Position numbers and translations under genes: made by a program. Source: a virus. Taken from it: 25,724 nucleotides of DNA. The stretch covers positions 1 through 25,724 of IMG/VR virus record IMGVR_UViG_3300020162_000930. One strand, given 5' to 3'. Each line of letters starts with the position of its first letter. The first letter of the stretch is position 1. This document shows positions 1,351 through 21,820 of the stretch, one piece after another. The notes under the pieces were generated by a model, which was not told the origin of the DNA, did no database searches, and was given only the letters and a program-made list of their open reading frames with translations.

Positions 1351-1381
1351 CAAATATAATGAATTTAATTAAGATATCAAA
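1351..1381 (-). promoter_or_regulatory. Bacteroidota-type promoter TTTG-N19-TATATTTG
   Basis: Read on the minus strand, TTTG (1378-1381) is followed by 19 bases and TATATTTG (1351-1358). This matches the Bacteroidota housekeeping consensus of a TTTG -33 box and a TAnnTTTG -7 box. The -33 TTTG is the end of the T-tract of the terminator just upstream. The -7 box lies four bases from the ATG at 1346. Confidence 0.75.
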
Positions 1382-1404
1382 AAAAAGTCCCTATAAATAG
1401 GGAC
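1379..1404 (-). terminator. Intrinsic terminator after the 94-aa gene
   Basis: Minus-strand GTCCCTA, loop TTTA, TAGGGAC (1387-1404) is followed by eight T residues (1379-1386). It lies seven bases after the stop of the gene at 1411-1695. The T-tract runs directly into the -33 box of the next promoter. Confidence 0.88.
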
Positions 1405-2948: not shown

Positions 2949-3499
2949 GATTTGTATAATCTGTTGTTATTGTATAATGCAATTGGATTTTCTTCAGCTA
3001 ATATTCCATATTCTTTCTTTACATTCTCGTGGATAATGTTTTTATCTTCGTTAATGTACTTAGCTATGATGTTAACAAATGCGTAGTTGGATTCGTCTAC
3101 TTGGTCTTGTTCGGTTCCGGGAAGTCCACAATAGTATGCTTCACCTACTTCGCTGATAAACATTCCAGAATAAAACCCCGCAAGTTTAAACCCATCCACA
3201 AATTTGTCAGCATTACACCAAATAAAGACATTGTTGTCCTTTTCTTTTAAAATTGGTACCATTGATTGGTCGATAATATAACCGTTGTCTTTACCGTTTA
3301 TAATGAATTGGCCGACATGGAACAAACCAGCTGGTGAGCCGTGACCCATCATCATGATTCTATCATGTTCTCTCATTAATGTCATGAGTTCGGATTTATT
3401 AATCCCTCCTGTTATTAATGTTTGATTTGGGATGTCTTTATAGACAATATCCAAAAAAAATGTACTTTCATCCTGTGGATGGATTATCAAAGTTTTCAC
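2945..3499 (-). CDS. Caspase-like (clan CD fold) protein, putative cysteine peptidase
   Basis: A 184-residue protein whose hydrophobic strand DRIMMM runs into GHGSPAGLF (His53), followed about 40 residues later by a second strand and NNVFIWCNADKF (Cys95). A strand-HG / strand-C-x-A pairing is the hallmark of the caspase, clostripain and CHAT catalytic dyad, where His and Cys end successive beta strands. Length is short, close to a single p20-like domain. The start codon is GTG (3497-3499), overlapping the TAG stop of the DnaA-like gene as TAGTG. Peptidase activity is inference from two motifs. It could be a non-catalytic relative, or a catalytic one acting on a host or phage protein. Confidence 0.72.
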   Translation of the reverse strand: MKTLIIHPQDESTFFLDIVYKDIPNQTLITGGINKSELMTLMREHDRIMMMGHGSPAGLFHVGQFIINGKDNGYIIDQSMVPILKEKDNNVFIWCNADKFVDGFKLAGFYSGMFISEVGEAYYCGLPGTEQDQVDESNYAFVNIIAKYINEDKNIIHENVKKEYGILAEENPIALYNNNRLYKS

Positions 3500-3879
3500 T
3501 AATATATTCTGTTTTTAATTTCATCGAAGATTCCATCGGCAACACCTTTGTAATCTCCGTAATTTCTATATCTATCATGAAATGCCCCAACCGCGTGCAT
3601 AATACTTGTATGGTCTCTATCACACATTTCACCAATAAATTTAAGTGAATGTCCAAATTCCTTTCTCATCACGGCAATAAACATAAAACGAGCATCAATC
3701 ACCTCTCTTTTTCTTGAACGGGATAAGATGTCATCCATATTAACACAACAGTTTTTAGCAACTATTGATAATATTTCTTCTTTACTAATTCTGTCTCTTT
3801 TGAATTTTCTTGTCTTTAGAAATTCTTCCTTATGTTTTAAACCTGGGAAGATGTAATGACTAATGGTTGTTTCTAACAT
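3499..3879 (-). CDS. Stand-alone DnaA domain IV-like DNA-binding protein
   Basis: A 126-residue protein whose residues 33-100 match the C-terminal DNA-binding domain of DnaA: EEILSIVAKNCCVNMDDIL, then SRKREVIDARFM (55-66), then the signature helix DRDHTSIMHA (87-96, compare GRDHTTVLHA in DnaA). There is no AAA+ ATPase domain and no room for one. It therefore should bind DnaA-box-like DNA without ATP-driven oligomerisation. It could mark a phage origin, compete with host DnaA, or act as a transcription factor; the last two are inference. It is the first gene of an operon with the caspase-like gene, driven by a consensus Bacteroidota-type promoter. Confidence 0.9.
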   Translation of the reverse strand: MLETTISHYIFPGLKHKEEFLKTRKFKRDRISKEEILSIVAKNCCVNMDDILSRSRKREVIDARFMFIAVMRKEFGHSLKFIGEMCDRDHTSIMHAVGAFHDRYRNYGDYKGVADGIFDEIKNRIY

Positions 3880-3898: not shown

Positions 3899-3930
3899 CA
3901 AATATACCATTATAGTTTGAATATACCAAA
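3899..3930 (-). promoter_or_regulatory. Bacteroidota-type promoter TTTG-N20-TATATTTG
   Basis: On the minus strand TTTG (3927-3930), 20 bases, then TATATTTG (3899-3906), 19 bases before the ATG of the DnaA-like gene. No strong terminator precedes it; the upstream gene stops at 3939. Confidence 0.72.
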
Positions 3931-3938
3931 TTTTTTAA

Positions 3939-4172
3939 CTAGAAGTTTCCGAATAAAAACATGTAAACCACCTCAGGGATTTGAGTGCAGACTCTTTTTT
4001 CATCGTTTTGGTCCCTACATTCAATATATGGTAAATTTTTAATATATTTCTTCATATATTGAGGAGCGGATTGTAATCGTTTAACTATAACTTCTCTAGA
4101 ATATAGTTTATCTTGTTGATAATACTCTAAAAGTACTTTCTTATATTGAGATTCGTTTATAATTAATTTCAT
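3939..4172 (-). CDS. Tagged small protein (77 aa)
   Basis: A 77-residue protein beginning MKLIINESQYKKVLLEYYQQ. This opening fits the tag seen in other proteins of the window: a Glu-Ser/Glu pair, a hydrophobic-polar helix and then a Glu. The remainder is basic (SREVIVKRLQSAPQYMKKY) with two Cys (IECRDQNDEKRVC) and a hydrophobic end (YMFLFGNF). I recognise no family. It ends just before the DnaA-like gene's promoter. A virion-packaged or processed protein is inferred from the tag only. Confidence 0.72.
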   Translation of the reverse strand: MKLIINESQYKKVLLEYYQQDKLYSREVIVKRLQSAPQYMKKYIKNLPYIECRDQNDEKRVCTQIPEVVYMFLFGNF

Positions 4173-4664: not shown

Positions 4665-4746
4665 CACCCAGTATTTATCTAGTATACTAGCACTAGAAGC
4701 AAAACCAGATATCTAGAAAAGCATTAATACTAGTAAATACTGGGTG
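4665..4746. repeat. Long inverted repeat, candidate structured RNA or MITE-like element
   Basis: CACCCAGTATTTA (4665-4677) is perfectly complementary to 4734-4746. After one unpaired base, CTAGTAT (4679-4685) pairs with ATACTAG (4727-4733). The result is a 20-bp stem with one bulge and a 41-base loop containing further CTAG tetramers. It fills the gap between the cyclophilin stop and the next gene. It lacks a clear T-tract on the minus strand, so a simple intrinsic terminator is not the obvious reading. Confidence 0.85.
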
Positions 4747-4754
4747 TTTTCAAT

Positions 4755-5186
4755 CTATAATATCGTTATTTCCATTATCTTATCTCCTTGTTGGATTGAA
4801 TCTATTACATCCAAACCTTCAACTACTTTACCAAAACAGGTATGATTTCTGTCAAGATGTGATGTATTGTTGCGACTATGACAAATAAAGAACTGTGATC
4901 CACCCGTGTTTCTTCCTGCGTGTGCCATAGATAAAACACCCCTGTCATGGTATTGTTTATCCGCATCAACTTCACATGGAATATTGTAACCTGGACCACC
5001 TGAACCATTCCCAATTGGGCATCCACCTTGGATAACAAAATCAGGAAGTACTCTATGGAAATTCAATCCATTATAAAATCCTTTATCGATTAAATCTTTA
5101 AAGTTATTAACTGTTAACGGGGTTTCGTTATCATATAACTCAGCTATCATTTGCCCCTTTGCTGTTGAAATTCTTACTTTGCTCAT
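4755..5186 (-). CDS. ppiB: Cyclophilin-type peptidyl-prolyl cis-trans isomerase
   Basis: The 143-residue protein is a compact single-domain cyclophilin. It has the catalytic segment FHRVLPDFVIQGG, which holds the conserved Arg, Phe and Gln, then SMAHAGRNTGGSQFFI and LDRNHTCFGKVVEGLDV, the family's HTxFGKV motif. The tryptophan found in many family members before LD is not present, as in many bacterial forms. There is no signal peptide, so it acts in the cytoplasm, where it would speed proline isomerisation during folding. Its ATG overlaps the stop of a 33-aa membrane peptide (ATGA). A virion-assembly or folding role is inference. Phage cyclophilins are uncommon. Confidence 0.95.
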   Translation of the reverse strand: MSKVRISTAKGQMIAELYDNETPLTVNNFKDLIDKGFYNGLNFHRVLPDFVIQGGCPIGNGSGGPGYNIPCEVDADKQYHDRGVLSMAHAGRNTGGSQFFICHSRNNTSHLDRNHTCFGKVVEGLDVIDSIQQGDKIMEITIL

Positions 5187-5284
5187 TTTTGTTTATTTTG
5201 TTTATCTTTTATCAAAATATATGTAAACCATATTGATGCAATCAACACTATGGTAACATACATTATTGTTTGTTTAACGTACAT
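5183..5284 (-). CDS. 33-aa single-helix membrane peptide
   Basis: An ATG at 5282-5284 opens a 33-codon frame with one hydrophobic helix (IMYVTIVLIASIWFTYIL) and a Lys/Gln-rich tail (KDKQNKQK). Its start shares bases with the stop of the 335-aa gene (TAATG) and its TGA overlaps the ATG of the cyclophilin. It therefore bridges the two neighbours exactly, which is strong evidence for translation. Topology is probably N-out with a cytoplasmic basic tail. Function unknown. Confidence 0.68.
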   Translation of the reverse strand: MYVKQTIMYVTIVLIASIWFTYILIKDKQNKQK

Positions 5285-6291
5285 TATAGTGATATTGATT
5301 GACTCACAGGTCCTTCCCAACTACCTCTCTCAACCTCAATGCTTGGTTCTTCCTGTGATGGTTCAACCATATCTTCTTCACTTCTTTCTAATGCTCTACC
5401 AATTCTTCTAGTTCTTGTTTCTGCAATTGTTTCCACAGGTTGACTATGATAATTAAAATCATATGTGGTACTAAGTCCTTGTTTTTTTAATAACTTATCT
5501 TCTTTATTTCTTTCATCATCACTCAACAAAAAACGATTGGTCTTAGCACCTTTACTTTTTGATTCCTCACGAATTATTAATCTTATATCATCCGTAATTT
5601 CAGCATCTAATGAATCAATTCTTTTATCCTTTTGGTCCCAAAATGAAAACTCAGGATCATTCTTATCTAATGAATAAAAACTTGCAACTTTATAACCTGT
5701 TTTTTTATTTATACAATAAATTAAAACACCCTTACTTGCAAATTTAATATAATATTCTGGATTGTTTTCTTGTGTTGTACACCATTTGGTGTTGGCTCCG
5801 TACTTCTTTGATGATATATATGTCAATGGTCTAACTAATAACCACTCATCATTATCAAGAACAATCTTTACTTGTTTTTCTAAGTTTTTTGTTTCTGCAA
5901 TCATCTCAGCTAAACTTAATTCTTTTAATATTTCATCAAAAGAATTGTACTTGGACACATCATTTTGTTTAATGATTCCTCTTTCATTATATTCACAAAA
6001 TTTTTGGAATGATTGTAAATCCGCAACATTAAACATAGAGTCAATAAGTCTATGGAAAAAGACTATCTGTAATTTTGGAATTGTATCGAGTTTTTCTTTG
6101 TTAAAACCAAATTGGTCAATAAAGTATTCCTTTATCTCTTCCACATGTTCATTAAAGTCTTTAGTTTTTTTCATTACTCTAATCAAAGTTTCGGTATACT
6201 TTGATTTCTCATCTGGACTAAACAAAGAAAACAATTCAAATATGTTTACATTATTTTCCGCATTAGATTTTAAATCTCTTAATCTTGACAT
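5284..6291 (-). CDS. KWCT-domain phage protein (335 aa)
   Basis: A 335-residue protein with a helical N-terminal two-thirds. A central domain contains DNDEWLLVRPLTYISSKKYG followed by ANTKWCTT, then YYIKFASKGVLIYCINKK, a strand pair, and FSFWDQKDKRI. I recognise this KYGAxTKWCT arrangement from phage proteins without an assigned function. The layout (an invariant Cys, then paired strands reading out a substrate-like segment) recalls the PcfJ-type module found twice elsewhere in this window. The C-terminal 60 residues are acidic and probably disordered (SEEDMVEPSQEEPSIEVE). It is coupled by TAATG to the 33-aa peptide and cyclophilin and follows its own terminator-promoter cassette. Confidence 0.82.
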   Translation of the reverse strand: MSRLRDLKSNAENNVNIFELFSLFSPDEKSKYTETLIRVMKKTKDFNEHVEEIKEYFIDQFGFNKEKLDTIPKLQIVFFHRLIDSMFNVADLQSFQKFCEYNERGIIKQNDVSKYNSFDEILKELSLAEMIAETKNLEKQVKIVLDNDEWLLVRPLTYISSKKYGANTKWCTTQENNPEYYIKFASKGVLIYCINKKTGYKVASFYSLDKNDPEFSFWDQKDKRIDSLDAEITDDIRLIIREESKSKGAKTNRFLLSDDERNKEDKLLKKQGLSTTYDFNYHSQPVETIAETRTRRIGRALERSEEDMVEPSQEEPSIEVERGSWEGPVSQSISL

Positions 6292-6308: not shown

Positions 6309-6340
6309 AAAATATAAATAAACTATTTCATAAAAACAAA
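6309..6340 (-). promoter_or_regulatory. Promoter TTTG-N20-TATATTTT
   Basis: On the minus strand TTTG (6337-6340), 20 bases, then TATATTTT (6309-6316), one mismatch from TAnnTTTG. It lies 17 bases before the ATG of the 335-aa gene. The -33 box is formed by the end of the upstream terminator T-tract. Confidence 0.6.
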
Positions 6341-6368
6341 AAAAATATCCAATATTTCTATTGGATAT
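6338..6368 (-). terminator. Intrinsic terminator overlapping a stop codon
   Basis: Minus-strand ATATCCAATA, loop GAAA, TATTGGATAT (6345-6368) is followed by a run of T (6338-6345). The TAG stop of the upstream gene (6358-6360) lies at the loop boundary, so coding sequence forms one arm. Confidence 0.8.
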
Positions 6369-7204: not shown

Positions 7205-7672
7205 TTATAATCCTAAAACTTTTAATTGGTCGATTGTATGTTTAGTACTAACATGATGAATACCAATACCTCCATTATCTCTCCATCCTTGGATATTATC
7301 TAACCTATCATCAATTAAAATCGATGTTGGTGTTGCAAAATCTTTCTTATGTTTCGCACTTCTTAAAATAAGATGTGTTCCTGGTAACTCTTTATTGACC
7401 CAATCGTGTTTCGCAATTCTTGAATCGTTTTGTCTTGATGGTGCCGATAATAATTCTGGACCATACTTCTCAATATATTTCCATAATTGTTTACCATCTT
7501 TCATCCACTCAAGTTTAAACCAAAAGTCGTAACCTGCTTTGTTAATTGGGTCCCAAAAATCAGTATCGTCAAAATGTTGCCCCGCAATATCCTTGCCGGT
7601 CAATTCTTTATAACCTTTGTCGAAATCAACTAAGACTCCGTCCATGTCGCAATATATCTTATATTTTTCCAT
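7205..7672 (-). CDS. 5'(3')-deoxyribonucleotidase-like HAD phosphatase
   Basis: The 155-residue protein begins KIYCDMDGVLVDF, the DxDGV nucleophile motif of HAD phosphatases (Asp9, Asp11). LLSAPS near 74-79 supplies the motif II Ser, and LIDDRLDNIQGW at about 119-128 supplies the acidic motif IV. The short length and motif spacing fit the NT5C (5' nucleotidase, deoxy, cytosolic) family, which removes phosphate from deoxynucleoside monophosphates. In a phage this could adjust dNTP pools or remove unwanted nucleotides during DNA synthesis; that role is inference. It lies directly downstream of an adenine methyltransferase. Confidence 0.88.
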   Translation of the reverse strand: MEKYKIYCDMDGVLVDFDKGYKELTGKDIAGQHFDDTDFWDPINKAGYDFWFKLEWMKDGKQLWKYIEKYGPELLSAPSRQNDSRIAKHDWVNKELPGTHLILRSAKHKKDFATPTSILIDDRLDNIQGWRDNGGIGIHHVSTKHTIDQLKVLGL

Positions 7673-7675
7673 AAC

Positions 7676-8494
7676 TCATATTATAAAATTTTTTATAATT
7701 ATTTCTTGGGATCCCAACCCTTTTTTCTTCGCCACTTTCTCGTAATTATAATCAATATCAATTACGTTCCACTTGTTTACTTTATCCATAAAAGGATTCT
7801 CAACACCTTTATGGTTTCTAACATTACTCATTAAGAAACGAACACCATTATTATCTAACATATCTAAAAAATAATATAACATATGTTCGTCGTCCATTGA
7901 CCAATATGAATTGTAACCAGCTTCGGTTATCATATAAGGTGGGTCAAGATAAACGAAATCACGGGATGTTGGATTAAATTTAAGAAGTAATTCTCTATAA
8001 CTAAAATTAGTAAATGTAATTTGTTTTTCATGGATAATTCTATAGTACTCTTTCAATTTACTAATAGTGCTATCGTTAATAGTTCTATTACCAAAGGTCT
8101 GATTAAATTCAAACTTCTTATTGAACCTCATCATATTATTTGTACAAGATGAAACTAATGAAAAGAAAAGAAATGGGTCTTTTGTTTTGTTAAACTCACT
8201 TCTAATTTCATTAAATTTTTCTTTATTTTTATCAATTCTATTTTCAATAACCGTTTCTACTAAATCATCAAAATTATTATATGATTTAATTTCTTTATAA
8301 AATTCCACCATTGGTGATATGATATCGTTTGAAACTATCTTATCATAATCACAATTAATGGTGACAGATAATCCTCCCGCAAATACGTCATAAAATGTAT
8401 CAACATCAGACGGAAAATGCTCCAATAAAATTGGCATTAACTTGTCTTTTGCACCTGTATAATTTAATGGGGATTTGTATATTATCTTTTCCAT
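7676..8494 (-). CDS. dam: D12-class DNA adenine N6-methyltransferase (Dam-like)
   Basis: I start at ATG 8492-8494, giving 272 residues; a longer TTG-initiated frame to 8527 would run through the promoter. The N-terminus SPLNYTGAKDKLM is the conserved start of the D12 class, followed by motif I in FYDVFAGGLSV (34-44). The catalytic motif IV DPPY is at 184-187. This is the Dam/DpnM order, methylating adenine N6, often at GATC, but the target cannot be read from sequence. No cognate restriction enzyme is visible, so it is likely an orphan enzyme protecting phage DNA. The -7 promoter box lies three bases before the ATG, suggesting a leaderless message. Confidence 0.94.
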   Translation of the reverse strand: MEKIIYKSPLNYTGAKDKLMPILLEHFPSDVDTFYDVFAGGLSVTINCDYDKIVSNDIISPMVEFYKEIKSYNNFDDLVETVIENRIDKNKEKFNEIRSEFNKTKDPFLFFSLVSSCTNNMMRFNKKFEFNQTFGNRTINDSTISKLKEYYRIIHEKQITFTNFSYRELLLKFNPTSRDFVYLDPPYMITEAGYNSYWSMDDEHMLYYFLDMLDNNGVRFLMSNVRNHKGVENPFMDKVNKWNVIDIDYNYEKVAKKKGLGSQEIIIKNFII

Positions 8495-8497
8495 ACA

Positions 8498-8528
8498 CAA
8501 ATATACTATATTAATTCGAATATACAAA
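8498..8528 (-). promoter_or_regulatory. Bacteroidota-type promoter TTTG-N19-TATATTTG
   Basis: On the minus strand TTTG (8525-8528), 19 bases, then TATATTTG (8498-8505). The box ends three bases before the Dam start codon. TTTG is the terminal part of the terminator T-tract immediately upstream. Confidence 0.75.
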
Positions 8529-8555
8529 AAAAACCCTCATTTTTTGTGAGGGTTT
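8526..8555 (-). terminator. Intrinsic terminator after the 79-aa tagged gene
   Basis: Minus-strand AAACCCTCA, seven-base loop, TGAGGGTTT (8531-8555) is followed by an unbroken run of T to 8526. It lies a few bases after the stop at 8561. Confidence 0.88.
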
Positions 8556-8560
8556 ATATA

Positions 8561-8800
8561 TTAAACTTTTTTTCTTGTCAGAACTTGTCCTGTATCGGCA
8601 TTAAGAGCGTATAAATAACCGTCTTCACCTTTACCAATTGCAATATTAAGTGGTTTTTCATCACTCATTTCACCTTGTTCGGTTACTTCCGTCTCTTCAT
8701 GAGCAATACTGTCTGGTTGTCCAATTTCAGATTGTTCGTTTACTATATTACTTACGATATTCTCAATATCACTTTGTGTTATTTTTACAATTTTAGCCAT
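8561..8800 (-). CDS. Tagged protein (79 aa)
   Basis: A 79-residue protein beginning AKIVKITQSDIENIVSNIVN, followed by EQSE, one of the clearest examples of the recurrent tag. The tag ends with IVNE, which fits the (I/L)xxE cleavage rule of T4-type prohead proteases. After the tag come an acidic, disordered stretch (HEETEVTEQGEMSDEKP) and a C-terminal strand pair with GYLYALNADTGQVLTRKKV. I recognise no family. It ends at a strong terminator, and an AGTATTTATATA motif precedes the start. A packaged, processed virion protein is inference. Confidence 0.74.
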   Translation of the reverse strand: MAKIVKITQSDIENIVSNIVNEQSEIGQPDSIAHEETEVTEQGEMSDEKPLNIAIGKGEDGYLYALNADTGQVLTRKKV

Positions 8801-10990: not shown

Positions 10991-11491
10991 TTAACAAAAT
11001 TCAGTTGCTGAACTTACACGAAGTCCATCGATTATTAAATCATCATACTTGGGGTCATCAAAAAACGAACCAACACCTTTAGCTCTTTCCTTTTTTCGAT
11101 ATTCACGATTAACAACTAACCCATCAGGTTTACCCCATTCAAGTGCCATGGTAATAAACTCTTCTACTTTTTGTTCTTCACCATACTCATCAACAACTCT
11201 ACCAGAACGAATAAAGGATAGTAATTCTTCTTTATTGGTATAGTACTTGTCTTTGTGAAAATTCCAACAGAACTTCCATCCCATACTTCGTTTACCTAAA
11301 TGAATATTAGTTCCTTCAATGAACATTTCCCAAGGTGAGAACCATTCCCAATCTTTAGTTGGTGAAATATATTTCATCCCTCTTTCAAGGTTTTCAACAG
11401 ACATATCCATTGATGTAACTTGTTGAATTAGAATCTGTTGTCTCTTCAACATCTCTTCGTGTGTTGGTATAAAATAATAGTTAGTTCCCAT
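10991..11491 (-). CDS. MGTNYY-family phage protein (166 aa)
   Basis: A 166-residue soluble protein beginning MGTNYYFIPTHEEMLKRQQI. The middle has GTNIHLGKRSMGWKFCWNFH, followed by helices (EELLSFIRSG, VEEFITMALEW). I recognise the MGTNYY...H[IL]GK.S.GW layout from phage and bacterial hypothetical proteins without a known role. Trp and Tyr are frequent. It is the first gene of a unit driven by a perfect-consensus promoter and is followed by a membrane protein and phosphoesterase. Confidence 0.78.
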   Translation of the reverse strand: MGTNYYFIPTHEEMLKRQQILIQQVTSMDMSVENLERGMKYISPTKDWEWFSPWEMFIEGTNIHLGKRSMGWKFCWNFHKDKYYTNKEELLSFIRSGRVVDEYGEEQKVEEFITMALEWGKPDGLVVNREYRKKERAKGVGSFFDDPKYDDLIIDGLRVSSATEFC

Positions 11492-11509: not shown

Positions 11510-11540
11510 CAAAGATAGGTATTATTTTGGATATCACAAA
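11510..11540 (-). promoter_or_regulatory. Bacteroidota-type promoter TTTG-N19-TATCTTTG
   Basis: On the minus strand TTTG (11537-11540), 19 bases, then TATCTTTG (11510-11517), 18 bases before the ATG at 11491. Both boxes match consensus exactly. It sits just after the stop of the 58-aa gene. Confidence 0.75.
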
Positions 11541-11545
11541 ATATT

Positions 11546-11722
11546 TTAAATAAGTTTTCTAACTATTTTTGGTGTAAAGTCAACAGTAGTTACATTACCT
11601 TGTACTTTATTTTTAGCAAATGGTGCAATTGCTTGTAACATTGCAACGTGTTTATCCTCGGAGTCAGGTACTTTAACTCTTGGTTTACTTTCTTCTTTTC
11701 TAAATTCGTATAAATCACTCAT
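11546..11722 (-). CDS. Small protein of unknown function (58 aa)
   Basis: An ATG at 11720-11722 opens a 58-codon frame ending at TAA 11546-11548. The protein starts MSDLYEFRKEESKPRVKVPD, then has HVAMLQAIAPFAKNKVQG and a C-terminal strand-like part (NVTTVDFTPKIVRKLI). It is soluble and mixed-charge. I recognise no family. It lies between a terminator-promoter region and the next promoter, so it may be a single-gene transcript. Confidence 0.66.
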   Translation of the reverse strand: MSDLYEFRKEESKPRVKVPDSEDKHVAMLQAIAPFAKNKVQGNVTTVDFTPKIVRKLI

Positions 11723-11745
11723 TAATATTTCTTTACTTATATATA

Positions 11746-11776
11746 CAAGTATACATTATTATTCTTATTAAAAAAA
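11746..11776 (-). promoter_or_regulatory. Weak promoter TTTT-N19-TATACTTG
   Basis: On the minus strand TATACTTG (11746-11753) differs from TAnnTTTG by one base, and TTTT stands at the -33 position. It is 23 bases before the ATG at 11722 and lies downstream of the terminator at 11782-11810. Confidence 0.4.
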
Positions 11777-11781
11777 GCCAT

Positions 11782-11810
11782 AAAAAAAATCCCCCAAATT
11801 TCTTTGGGGG
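11782..11810 (-). terminator. Strong intrinsic terminator after the 476-aa gene
   Basis: Minus-strand CCCCCAAA, loop GAAA, TTTGGGGG (11791-11810) is followed by A then eight T residues (11782-11789). It lies 55 bases after the stop of the upstream gene, and that interval holds two more small inverted repeats. Confidence 0.9.
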
Positions 11811-11864
11811 ACTAACTGAAACACTAGTGTGTCGGTCCATGAATACTGTCCATGGAGAGGTTCG

Positions 11865-13295
11865 TTATTTTTCCATTTCACCAATAATGTTCTGAACAAT
11901 TCTGTTTAAATCAGATTCACTCAATTTCATTGTTTTGGTTACATCTTTTCTTGTTTTTAAAATTCTACTCTCTAAACTCTTTATTGGATTAAACTCCATA
12001 ATTTGTTTCTTTACACCTTCTAGTGCCACAACAAATGCTTTTCTAATTTTAGGATGGTCTAATACATCTCTTAATGGTTGACCATTAGATACTAACACAT
12101 TTTCTAACAAAGGAGTCTCAGCACTTGAATAAAAGTCTTTGTCGGGGTATAAACCACGTCCTGTCCATTCTTCTCTTAATTTCTCACCCAATTCAGTCTC
12201 AACCATAATTTGCCAAGTATATGTTTGACCACCACCATCAATTGTTGATGTTTCACCAGTTATACTTAATTTTGTTTCAACCACATAATCTTTATCTAAT
12301 AATTGGTATCCACCTCTTTCCATTTTATGAATTGGTGTTAATGGATTCCTTTTAAAATCGGGGTTTCTTTCGGCCTCTTTTTCTTGTTTTCTTGTTATTG
12401 ACCAATTTGCCGTTTTTTGATTAAATAGACGAGCCATGGATTCACCCTTTCTAACTTCAAACTCTCTACTATCAGGGTCGATTGCTTGTAAATCTAATAA
12501 TTCTTCGGCATTTTCTGAAAATTCATCAAATGTATGAAACGTATAAATGTTTACAGATGTCCAAACAAATAAATCATTTTCTTTTTTTGAATAACGATTA
12601 ATGTGTCTTTTTTGTACTGCTTCCTCATTACCTGACCATACAATTGGTTGATATCCTGATAAGAACATTTTATTATTTACCTCAGGAGTAACCAAATGGT
12701 CATGAATAACTTGATTCATTCCTCTTAATAACATTTGTCTTGAACTCGCAGGACCAGATCTTTGTGGTACAAAATCTTCGGGTTTGGTTAACATGTCAAC
12801 ACCCGTTGCGTCTTTTAAATTTCTCCATACCTTGTCCGTTAATTTTTGTGGGTTGTTTGGTTTTGAAACCGAATGTCCTAATTTAACGAAGTCAACGAAT
12901 TTGACATCAACTTTGTATTTAGAAATACCATCTTTATCTTTAGAAAACATTTCTTCAAGTTGTTCTTTAAACTCTTTTAAATCCTGTACACTAACATACT
13001 CTTCAGATGTTTGGTTTGGTTTTAATAATATAAATAAAACTCCTTCTCCCTCTTTTTGATTTGGGTTTAAAAGAAGGGCATCTGGTAATCTTTTTGTCTC
13101 CTTTTTACCTTTATGATACTCACCATATTTCTCGGCGTTAGGATGAAATAGATTTATTAATCTAGATGGTTTACCTGTTAGGGCACCTCTTTCTTTTCTG
13201 ATTCCTTGTAATTTCTTTTCCTGTGCTAATTCATCAATTTCATGTTCTGATTCATTGATGATAAACAAAAGGTCTTTCTTTGATATTTCTTTCAT
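11865..13295 (-). CDS. Doubly tagged protein of unknown function (476 aa)
   Basis: A 476-residue protein with a tag-like sequence at both ends: MKEISKKDLLFIINESEHE at the N-terminus and KLSESDLNRIVQNIIGEMEK at the C-terminus. IINE and IIGE both fit an (I/L)xxE protease site. The body is soluble and mixed alpha/beta, with YVSVQDLKEFKEQLEEMF near 100-117, a Lys-rich early region and TYTWQIMVETELGEKLREEW around 380-400. No catalytic motif is recognised. The strong terminator downstream and its neighbour, the tagged lysin, suggest a virion protein such as an internal or ejected protein; this is inference. Confidence 0.76.
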   Translation of the reverse strand: MKEISKKDLLFIINESEHEIDELAQEKKLQGIRKERGALTGKPSRLINLFHPNAEKYGEYHKGKKETKRLPDALLLNPNQKEGEGVLFILLKPNQTSEEYVSVQDLKEFKEQLEEMFSKDKDGISKYKVDVKFVDFVKLGHSVSKPNNPQKLTDKVWRNLKDATGVDMLTKPEDFVPQRSGPASSRQMLLRGMNQVIHDHLVTPEVNNKMFLSGYQPIVWSGNEEAVQKRHINRYSKKENDLFVWTSVNIYTFHTFDEFSENAEELLDLQAIDPDSREFEVRKGESMARLFNQKTANWSITRKQEKEAERNPDFKRNPLTPIHKMERGGYQLLDKDYVVETKLSITGETSTIDGGGQTYTWQIMVETELGEKLREEWTGRGLYPDKDFYSSAETPLLENVLVSNGQPLRDVLDHPKIRKAFVVALEGVKKQIMEFNPIKSLESRILKTRKDVTKTMKLSESDLNRIVQNIIGEMEK

Positions 13296-20758: not shown

Positions 20759-21733
20759 TTATTTTTTATGAGATTTCAAAACTTTTTGTGATTCAATATA
20801 ATTGTCTATAAAATTGATACGTTGGCCAATCCAATACATTACATTGACAGTCATAGAGTTACCAATACCACCTTTAACGGAAGAATAACTTGGTTTTTTA
20901 CCATCTATTTCAAAATCAAGGTAACCATCAGGAAAACCCTGAAGCCTCTCTAATTCTCTTTCTGTGAAGGTTCTAATACCATGTTTATCAATCCAAAAGT
21001 TAGATGTTGATACTTTACCAAATCCATCAACCAATGTTTGAGCATAACATTTAGTTACCGTACCTGCGAGTTTAATTTTTCCGAGAATGTTTGAGGTATA
21101 CTCATCCCTCTTGATGCGATTCTTCTCTTCAACGCTTTCAAAACATCCTTCTTCAAATAATACGGAGAATGGGATTTTCCAATTGTTTCCGCGATATCCG
21201 ACAATGAACACTCTTTTGCGTCGTTGGGGAACTCCGAAGTATTGGCTGTCGAAAACCCTATAAGCGATGGAGTATTCTTCCCCTTGGACAACCCCTTGTT
21301 TGTCGAGACTTTCTGGTTTGAAGTCAACACCGGTGAAAGAGGAGATGATTTCACATAGGGCTTTTTTGTGTTTGTTTTTAAAAACGCCTTCGACATTTTC
21401 CCAAATGAACCATCTTGGTCGTTTTTCTTTAAGAATTCTTCCATACTCAAGGGAGATTCTACCACGGATATCATCCATTCCTTTGTTGAGTCCCGCATCG
21501 GAAAAAGATTGACAAGGCGTTCCTCCGACCAATAAGTTGAATTTGATTTTTTTGTAACTTTCATGTGAGTTTAATTTAGTGATGTCTGAAAATAATGGTG
21601 TGTTTGGATAATGATGAGATAGCACTTTTTGGGGGAAGGATGCGAAGTCGCAAAGACCAACACATTCCCAATCTAAAGGTGACCAAGCAACGGATGCCGC
21701 TTCAATCCCACTACATACTGATAGATATTTCAT
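20759..21733 (-). CDS. dcm: DNA cytosine-5 methyltransferase (Dcm-like)
   Basis: The 324-residue protein has the full C5 motif set: motif I SVCSGIEAASVAW (5-17), motif IV GGTPCQSFS (catalytic Cys74), motif VI WENVEG (ENV at 112-114), motif VIII FGVPQRRKRVF (166-176) and motif X KGGIGNSMTVNV (288-298), preceded by LERLQGFPDGY. The stretch between VIII and X is about 110 residues, a short recognition domain. It methylates cytosine at C5 at an unknown site, without a visible restriction partner. A perfect TTTG-N19-TAATTTTG promoter precedes it. It is the second cytosine methyltransferase in the window. Confidence 0.95.
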   Translation of the reverse strand: MKYLSVCSGIEAASVAWSPLDWECVGLCDFASFPQKVLSHHYPNTPLFSDITKLNSHESYKKIKFNLLVGGTPCQSFSDAGLNKGMDDIRGRISLEYGRILKEKRPRWFIWENVEGVFKNKHKKALCEIISSFTGVDFKPESLDKQGVVQGEEYSIAYRVFDSQYFGVPQRRKRVFIVGYRGNNWKIPFSVLFEEGCFESVEEKNRIKRDEYTSNILGKIKLAGTVTKCYAQTLVDGFGKVSTSNFWIDKHGIRTFTERELERLQGFPDGYLDFEIDGKKPSYSSVKGGIGNSMTVNVMYWIGQRINFIDNYIESQKVLKSHKK

Positions 21734-21756: not shown

Positions 21757-21787
21757 CAAAATTAATAATAATTTATGAAATACCAAA
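21757..21787 (-). promoter_or_regulatory. Bacteroidota-type promoter TTTG-N19-TAATTTTG
   Basis: On the minus strand TTTG (21784-21787), 19 bases, then TAATTTTG (21757-21764), 23 bases before the methyltransferase ATG. Both boxes match consensus. A weak AT-only hairpin (21786-21805) lies just upstream. Confidence 0.75.
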
Positions 21788-21805
21788 AATATTTTAGAAT
21801 ATTTT
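21786..21805. terminator. Weak AT-only hairpin, possible terminator
   Basis: AAAATATT, loop TTAG, AATATTTT (21786-21805) lies after the 462-aa gene. The stem has no G or C and few extra T residues follow it on the minus strand, so termination would be inefficient. It abuts the next promoter like the stronger cassettes elsewhere. Confidence 0.4.
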
Positions 21806-21820
21806 TTTTAACGTTGATTA

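Follow-up and report, generated by a model that had tools for sequence, protein, structure and literature searches.

Terminator–promoter overlaps between operons have been described in Salmonella, at tufB-secE, rpoBC and S10-spc-alpha (work by Brandis, Cao and Hughes from 2019, reported in PMC7055797), and the same account states that interrupting the tufB-secE overlap lowers fitness in Salmonella (PMC7055797). The Bacteroidota sigma-ABfr promoter consists of a -33 TTTG box and a -7 TAnnTTTG box (PMC6847099, PMC7366714); in F. johnsoniae the -7 box takes the form TAHHTTTG and its last base lies at -5 (PMC6847099). Leaderless transcripts make up about 3.7% in B. thetaiotaomicron, counted as those with a 5′ UTR below 10 nt (PMC7366714), and 5.5% in F. 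psychrophilum (PMC9723704).

Here we analysed a 25.7-kb IMG/VR virus record (32% GC), referred to at its full length as the window, in which the long ORFs lie almost all on the minus strand. We read the sites at 1351–1405 and 8498–8554, and probably that at 6309–6368, as terminator–promoter overlaps between co-directional units that reflect economy in, and co-option of, T-runs and no dedicated device, and we put the probability of this reading at roughly 0.75. As in the Salmonella overlaps, a terminator and the next co-directional promoter share DNA and the arrangement is conserved, and this likeness in layout assigns the phage overlap to an already known bacterial kind. Unlike the Salmonella cases, which involve large core operons and the Salmonella promoter system, the phage junctions separate small units, use a TTTG/TAnnTTTG promoter and overlap only in the T-tract; the loss of fitness on interruption is a Salmonella result. 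The arrangement illustrates the close packing of transcription-unit boundaries that a phage can achieve, and it offers an annotation rule for uncultured large phages with Bacteroidota-type promoters, namely hairpin-T8-TTTG-N19-TATATTTG-N4-ATG.

Two junctions share a T-tract between terminator and promoter

All features described in this section lie on the minus strand. At the first site, the stop codon of the gene at 1411–1695 is followed by the terminator hairpin GGTCCCTATTTATAGGGACT (1386–1405; about -12 kcal/mol including its tail) and directly by T8 (1379–1386). This tract, TTTTTTTTG (1378–1386), ends in the four bases TTTG (1378–1381) that form the -33 box of a promoter whose -7 box, TATATTTG (1351–1358), is a strict match at a spacer of 19 nt. 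The ATG (1344–1346) of the downstream 59-aa gene (1167–1346), predicted to be leaderless, lies 4 nt past the -7 box. This layout confirms the first-pass annotation, which had described a terminator T-run ending in a TTTG-N19 promoter at this position. The second site repeats the design: hairpin AACCCTCACAAAAAATGAGGGTT (8532–8554; about -10 kcal/mol) lies 3′ of the gene at 8561–8800 and leads into the tract TTTTTTTTG (8525–8533), comprising T8 (8526–8533) and the -33 box TTTG (8525–8528), and a strict -7 box TATATTTG (8498–8505) follows at a spacer of 19 nt. The downstream gene is dam (7676–8494), encoding a D12-class N6-adenine DNA methyltransferase (Pfam PF02086, E 4.8e-34), whose ATG (8492–8494), backed by the homologue in L002, lies 3 nt past the box. 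By sequence, the same bases thus belong to both signals, T8/TTTG at 1378–1386 and 8525–8533. Neither of the two -7 boxes has a G in its two free positions.

Besides the first site, four places had been listed as recurrences of the design, which held in strict form at 8498–8554 and in part at 6309–6368. The latter, our third site, has an AT-richer, terminator-like hairpin ATATCCAATAGAAATATTGGATAT (6345–6368; about -10 kcal/mol) and, for the gene at 5284–6291, a near-consensus promoter T8-TTTG-N20-TATATTTT (6309–6345); hairpin, T8 and TTTG (6337–6340) are present, but the spacer is N20 and the -7 box TATATTTT (6309–6316) is off-consensus by one mismatch. The fourth site (11746–11812), described as a weaker form of the fusion, turned out to hold a strong but unfused terminator (11782–11812, hairpin 11789–11812), with T8 and, at -16 kcal/mol, the strongest hairpin of the five; ATGGC follows the T8, and TATACTTG lies 28 nt on. 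This TATACTTG box and a 58-aa gene occupy 11546–11753 (gene 11546–11722), between the site 4 terminator and the strict promoter TTTG-N19-TATCTTTG (11510–11540) of the gene at 10991–11491, which is kept upstream of that gene in relatives. The fifth site (21757–21806), also proposed as a weaker form, retains its promoter half, a strict TTTG-N19-TAATTTTG with T5 upstream of the C5-methyltransferase-like gene at 20759–21733, and loses its terminator half, the hairpin being AT-only and near-absent (-3 kcal/mol). The strict definition therefore applies to two of the five listed sites, where three strong cases had been counted; the five include all four strong intergenic terminator-like sites of the window. 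A strict promoter without a terminator, TTTG-N20-TATATTTG (3899–3930), lies upstream of the gene at 3499–3879.

At the two strict junctions, a polymerase leaving the upstream gene would meet the hairpin and stop in the T8 tract; the G that closes this tract completes the -33 box, TTTG, from which the next unit's promoter extends to its -7 box TATATTTG 19 nt on. With a start codon 3–4 nt past that box, the next mRNA would begin at or next to its AUG, and would be leaderless, if the transcription start register of F. johnsoniae applies. Overlap is favoured by short gaps and by the need of either signal for a T-tract, and we infer economy of space as its cause. The overlap may couple the two units or insulate them from each other.

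Fused junctions recur in other phages and are conserved by descent

Terminators and Bacteroidota-type promoters with a common T-tract recur within the window, as had been proposed, and occur in further phages as well: we counted 15 raw and about 11 independent fused sites in approximately 3.3 Mb of phage sequence, from relatives and others. With 2 strict sites in 25.7 kb the window is denser than its family, which averages about one per 147 kb, a difference to be read with the fact that the window site had been picked out in the first-pass annotation. Two huge-phage records chosen via a dam relative, LR756504 and LR756501, had 0 fused sites in the 41 kb of each that were covered.

Conservation was seen around 8528. 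In L002 (record G001), whose dam is 64% identical, a hairpin-T9-TTTG-N19-TATCTTTG-N4-ATG arrangement precedes dam with differing bases. In G047, L373 and L374, an upstream gene 30–32% identical to 8561–8800 is followed by a fused junction whose stem differs (AACCCC...GGGGTT) and then by a nucleotidase-like gene (window 7205–7672), with dam absent between the two. The arrangement is thereby kept across phages whose downstream proteins are 64–75% identical, and to judge from these comparisons the fusion at 8528 is conserved by descent despite its differing stem bases. At the third site, distant homologues of the gene at 5284–6291 (32% identical; L040, L044) carry the same order of hairpin, T-tract, TTTG, 20 nt and TATATTTT.

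In a less likely alternative, these junctions are points at which genes have been gained and lost, moron-like units flanked by terminators coming and going and thereby bringing terminator and promoter together. Phage morons are promoter-gene-terminator cassettes of lambdoid phages. Like them, the small gene at 11546–11722 has its own promoter-like TATACTTG box and stands between transcription units; unlike the moron class, it is a single clear case here. It splits a terminator and a promoter that abut in about ten relatives, and it had no homologue in the relatives fetched; dam, in turn, lies between the fused junction and the nucleotidase-like gene in the window and is missing from that position in G047, L373 and L374. 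These two loci suggest that such boundaries may be places of gene gain or loss. However, gain and loss account for the adjacency of the two signals and not for the exact sharing of a T-tract, and the case is limited to two loci at which the direction of change is not polarised. Gain and loss are, moreover, compatible with overlap through T-run economy, the reading that we prefer.

Hairpin and promoter are independent at a given T-run

The first-pass annotation had gone further and suggested a repeated punctuation module that ends one transcript and starts another within about 55 bases. As a dedicated and selected unit, such a module would be kept together because the fusion itself is functional, for example through mutual exclusion or polymerase hand-over. 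This reading was not upheld by a comparison matched for T-runs, in which gaps between co-directional genes were examined and each downstream gene family was counted once: among T-runs of at least 6, a fused promoter was carried by 11/159 of those with a hairpin and by 16/227 of those lacking one (odds ratio 0.98, p=1). Equal rates with and without a hairpin indicate that hairpin and promoter are independent once the T-run is given. Read plainly, T-runs seed -33 boxes, and a terminator T-run serves as well as any other.

Other counts were less uniform. A stable hairpin accompanied the T-run in 23/80 viral pattern matches, compared with 22/217 other T7G sites (29% versus 10%), a contrast stronger than that of the T-run-matched test and drawn with T7G sites that do not all lie in co-directional gaps; bacterial-genome pattern matches showed no enrichment (10/80 versus 20/213). 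The fused spacing was the commonest single spacing with a hairpin (10/28) as well as without (14/35), with a second cluster 6–12 nt apart, and this spacing test is inflated because the T-run already supplies the TTT of TTTG.

A selected module could draw on the viral hairpin contrast, on the conservation at 8528 despite changed stem bases, and on the Salmonella overlap, a functional precedent (PMC7055797). Against it stand, besides the absent association in matched gaps, the T-tract promoter of site 21757, which persists in the majority of about 40 relatives, usually without a stable hairpin, and the small fused fraction of unique terminators (8/355 and 7/668 under the full promoter definition), most phage terminators being unfused. 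We therefore consider such a module unlikely. Its most specific form appears slightly less likely still: a selected coupling device of approximately 65 bp in large phages of the Bacteroidota type, in which the terminated polymerase would sit on the next -33 box, termination and initiation would either exclude or feed one another, and transcription would start at the AUG.

Promoters and terminators exceed base composition

Shuffles that preserved dinucleotides were used to set expectations for the window. Strict promoters on the minus strand numbered 5, where shuffling the whole window gave 0.46 and shuffling its non-coding DNA gave 0.06, and T6-TTTG promoters numbered 2 against 0.018 expected per window. 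With counts so far above the shuffles, AT content does not account for the elements; the fusion itself did not rise above what T-run sharing would give. The same conclusion about the promoter follows from its spacer. In 37 de-replicated phage-family records (1.17 Mb, 9% of bases non-coding), TTTG-N-TAnnTTTG with spacers of 19–20 gave 112 non-coding and 32 coding matches, and spacers of 17, 21 and 22 together gave 6 and 34, respectively. On this evidence the promoter is real and of the known Bacteroidota -33/-7 type.

Like the sigma-ABfr promoter, sought here with a spacer of 19 ± 1 nt, the window sites have both boxes and lie in intergenic gaps. They depart from its description in three respects: the phage-family spacer is strictly 19–20, the -33 box is followed by an AT-rich stretch, often ATATTC, and some phage-family promoters have an ATG exactly 4 nt past the -7 box. 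Many phage-family -33 boxes run on as TTTGGAATATTC, often palindromically (for example, in L369 upstream of the homologue of the gene ending at 3879). Two candidate elements were examined and set aside. One was a dyad-symmetric operator over the -33 box, drawn from TTTGGAATATTCCAAA-like promoters; in de-duplicated promoters, 55 of the family and 151 others, symmetry did not exceed that of permuted halves. The other, a T-tract preceding TTTG in promoters generally, had an odds ratio of 3.6 in the family, a value raised artificially by numerous orthologues of a single site, and of 1.25 (p=0.35) in other phages.

The terminators are likewise real and have the sequence features of the Rho-independent type. 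The hairpins at 1386–1405, 8532–8554 and 11789–11812 contain GC, lie close behind a stop codon, are followed directly by T8 and have stabilities of about -10 to -16 kcal/mol. Across 11 related sequences, the hairpin orthologous to 11789–11812 was 100% paired wherever both sides had letters, with a compensatory change in 6/10 pairs, and its pairing fell to 62–66% when the partner was shifted by one column. The hairpin at 8528 is kept with altered stem bases in the few sequences available (G047, L373, L374 and G001).

Chance resemblance, that is, AT-rich DNA mimicking hairpin, T-run and promoter without function, would suit the 32% GC of the window, the commonness of T-runs in gaps and the imperfections of sites 3 and 5, but it is very improbable in view of the T6-promoter excess over shuffles, the restriction of the spacer preference to non-coding DNA, the compensatory stem changes and the conservation in relatives. 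Equally improbable is a hairpin that acts as a regulatory RNA or operator (attenuator, riboswitch or repressor dyad) instead of as a terminator: hairpins adjoin promoters and some promoters contain palindromes (TTTGGAATATTCCAAA, for example), but with transcription predicted to begin downstream of it, the hairpin is absent from the mRNA of the next gene, an Rfam search of the window gave no match, and de-duplicated promoters held no dyad signal beyond base composition.

A 4-nt class of predicted leaderless starts

The part of these junctions most worth following is the distance from the -7 box to the ATG. In phages it was bimodal: among 241 promoters, left from 278 after repeats were removed by gene family, 39 had a gap of exactly 4 nt, 48 (including these) a gap of 3–5 nt and 13 a gap of 6–14 nt, the remainder falling mostly at 15–40 nt. 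Records that had not been selected by an ATG pattern gave 12/96 gaps at 3–5 nt and 2 at 6–14 nt; pattern-selected records, taken without index-type matches, gave 31/138 and 8. The 4-nt class is exemplified by G013, G016 and G035 and by the window starts at 1346 and 8494, the latter with its gap of 3. Since the box ends at -5 in F. johnsoniae, a 4-nt gap places the AUG at +1; in this host register the AUG would lie at +1 at site 1 (gap 4) and at -1 at site 2 (gap 3), and the mRNAs of both strict sites would begin at or next to the AUG, without a leader. Bacteroidota ribosomes ignore Shine-Dalgarno sequences.

The predicted position of the phage AUG, at or near +1, is that of Bacteroidota leaderless transcripts. 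In contrast to the few per cent that these represent in Bacteroidota, 39/241 phage promoters have the 4-nt gap, and the sharp class predicts more leaderless mRNA in these phages than has been measured there. No comparable 4-nt spike was present in 27 bacterial genomes taken as Bacteroidota (about 95 Mb), where raw matches, coding ones included, numbered about 97 at gap 4, 61 at gap 10 and 92 at gap 19, and 18 of the approximately 97 were a single repeat. In G074, the genome of L149 (titled Tannerella sp.), a leaderless-type promoter TTTGGCATTCAAATGATTAATTAGTATATTTGCGGTATG occurs in about 18 copies, often at contig ends, and is probably a multicopy mobile element.

Gene content and further elements of the window

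The window encodes, besides the D12-class adenine methyltransferase, an IscA-like protein, a C5-methylase-like protein, a cyclophilin, a protein with a DnaA C-terminal domain, a dTDP-sugar epimerase and a nucleotidase-like protein. The C5-methyltransferase-like protein has numerous relatives, 84–100% identical, in viral contigs of up to 211 kb, and a 310-kb contig was retrieved via another window gene; the phage is a large one with Bacteroidota-type (housekeeping) promoters. From the promoter type we infer a Bacteroidota bacterium as host. For the 476-aa protein at 11865–13295, neither tblastn in phages nor peptide patterns retrieved a relative.

Two further observations concern the window at large. 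The intergenic stretch 4665–4755 holds an inverted repeat rich in CTAG and about 90 nt long, CACCCAGTATTTATCTAGTATACTAG...TACTAGTAAATACTGGGTG (about -33 kcal/mol), and a similar element occurs in one place each in the relatives G051 (at about 237.4 kb) and G046 (at about 31.5 kb); an origin, a recombination site or a structured RNA are possible identities. Otherwise unlike proteins, encoded at 1411–1695 and 3939–4172 in the window and in G001, G046, G051 and L445, start with similar versions of M-K-x-I-(T/N)-E-(S/E)-Q-(L/Y), suggestive of a common N-terminal targeting signal.
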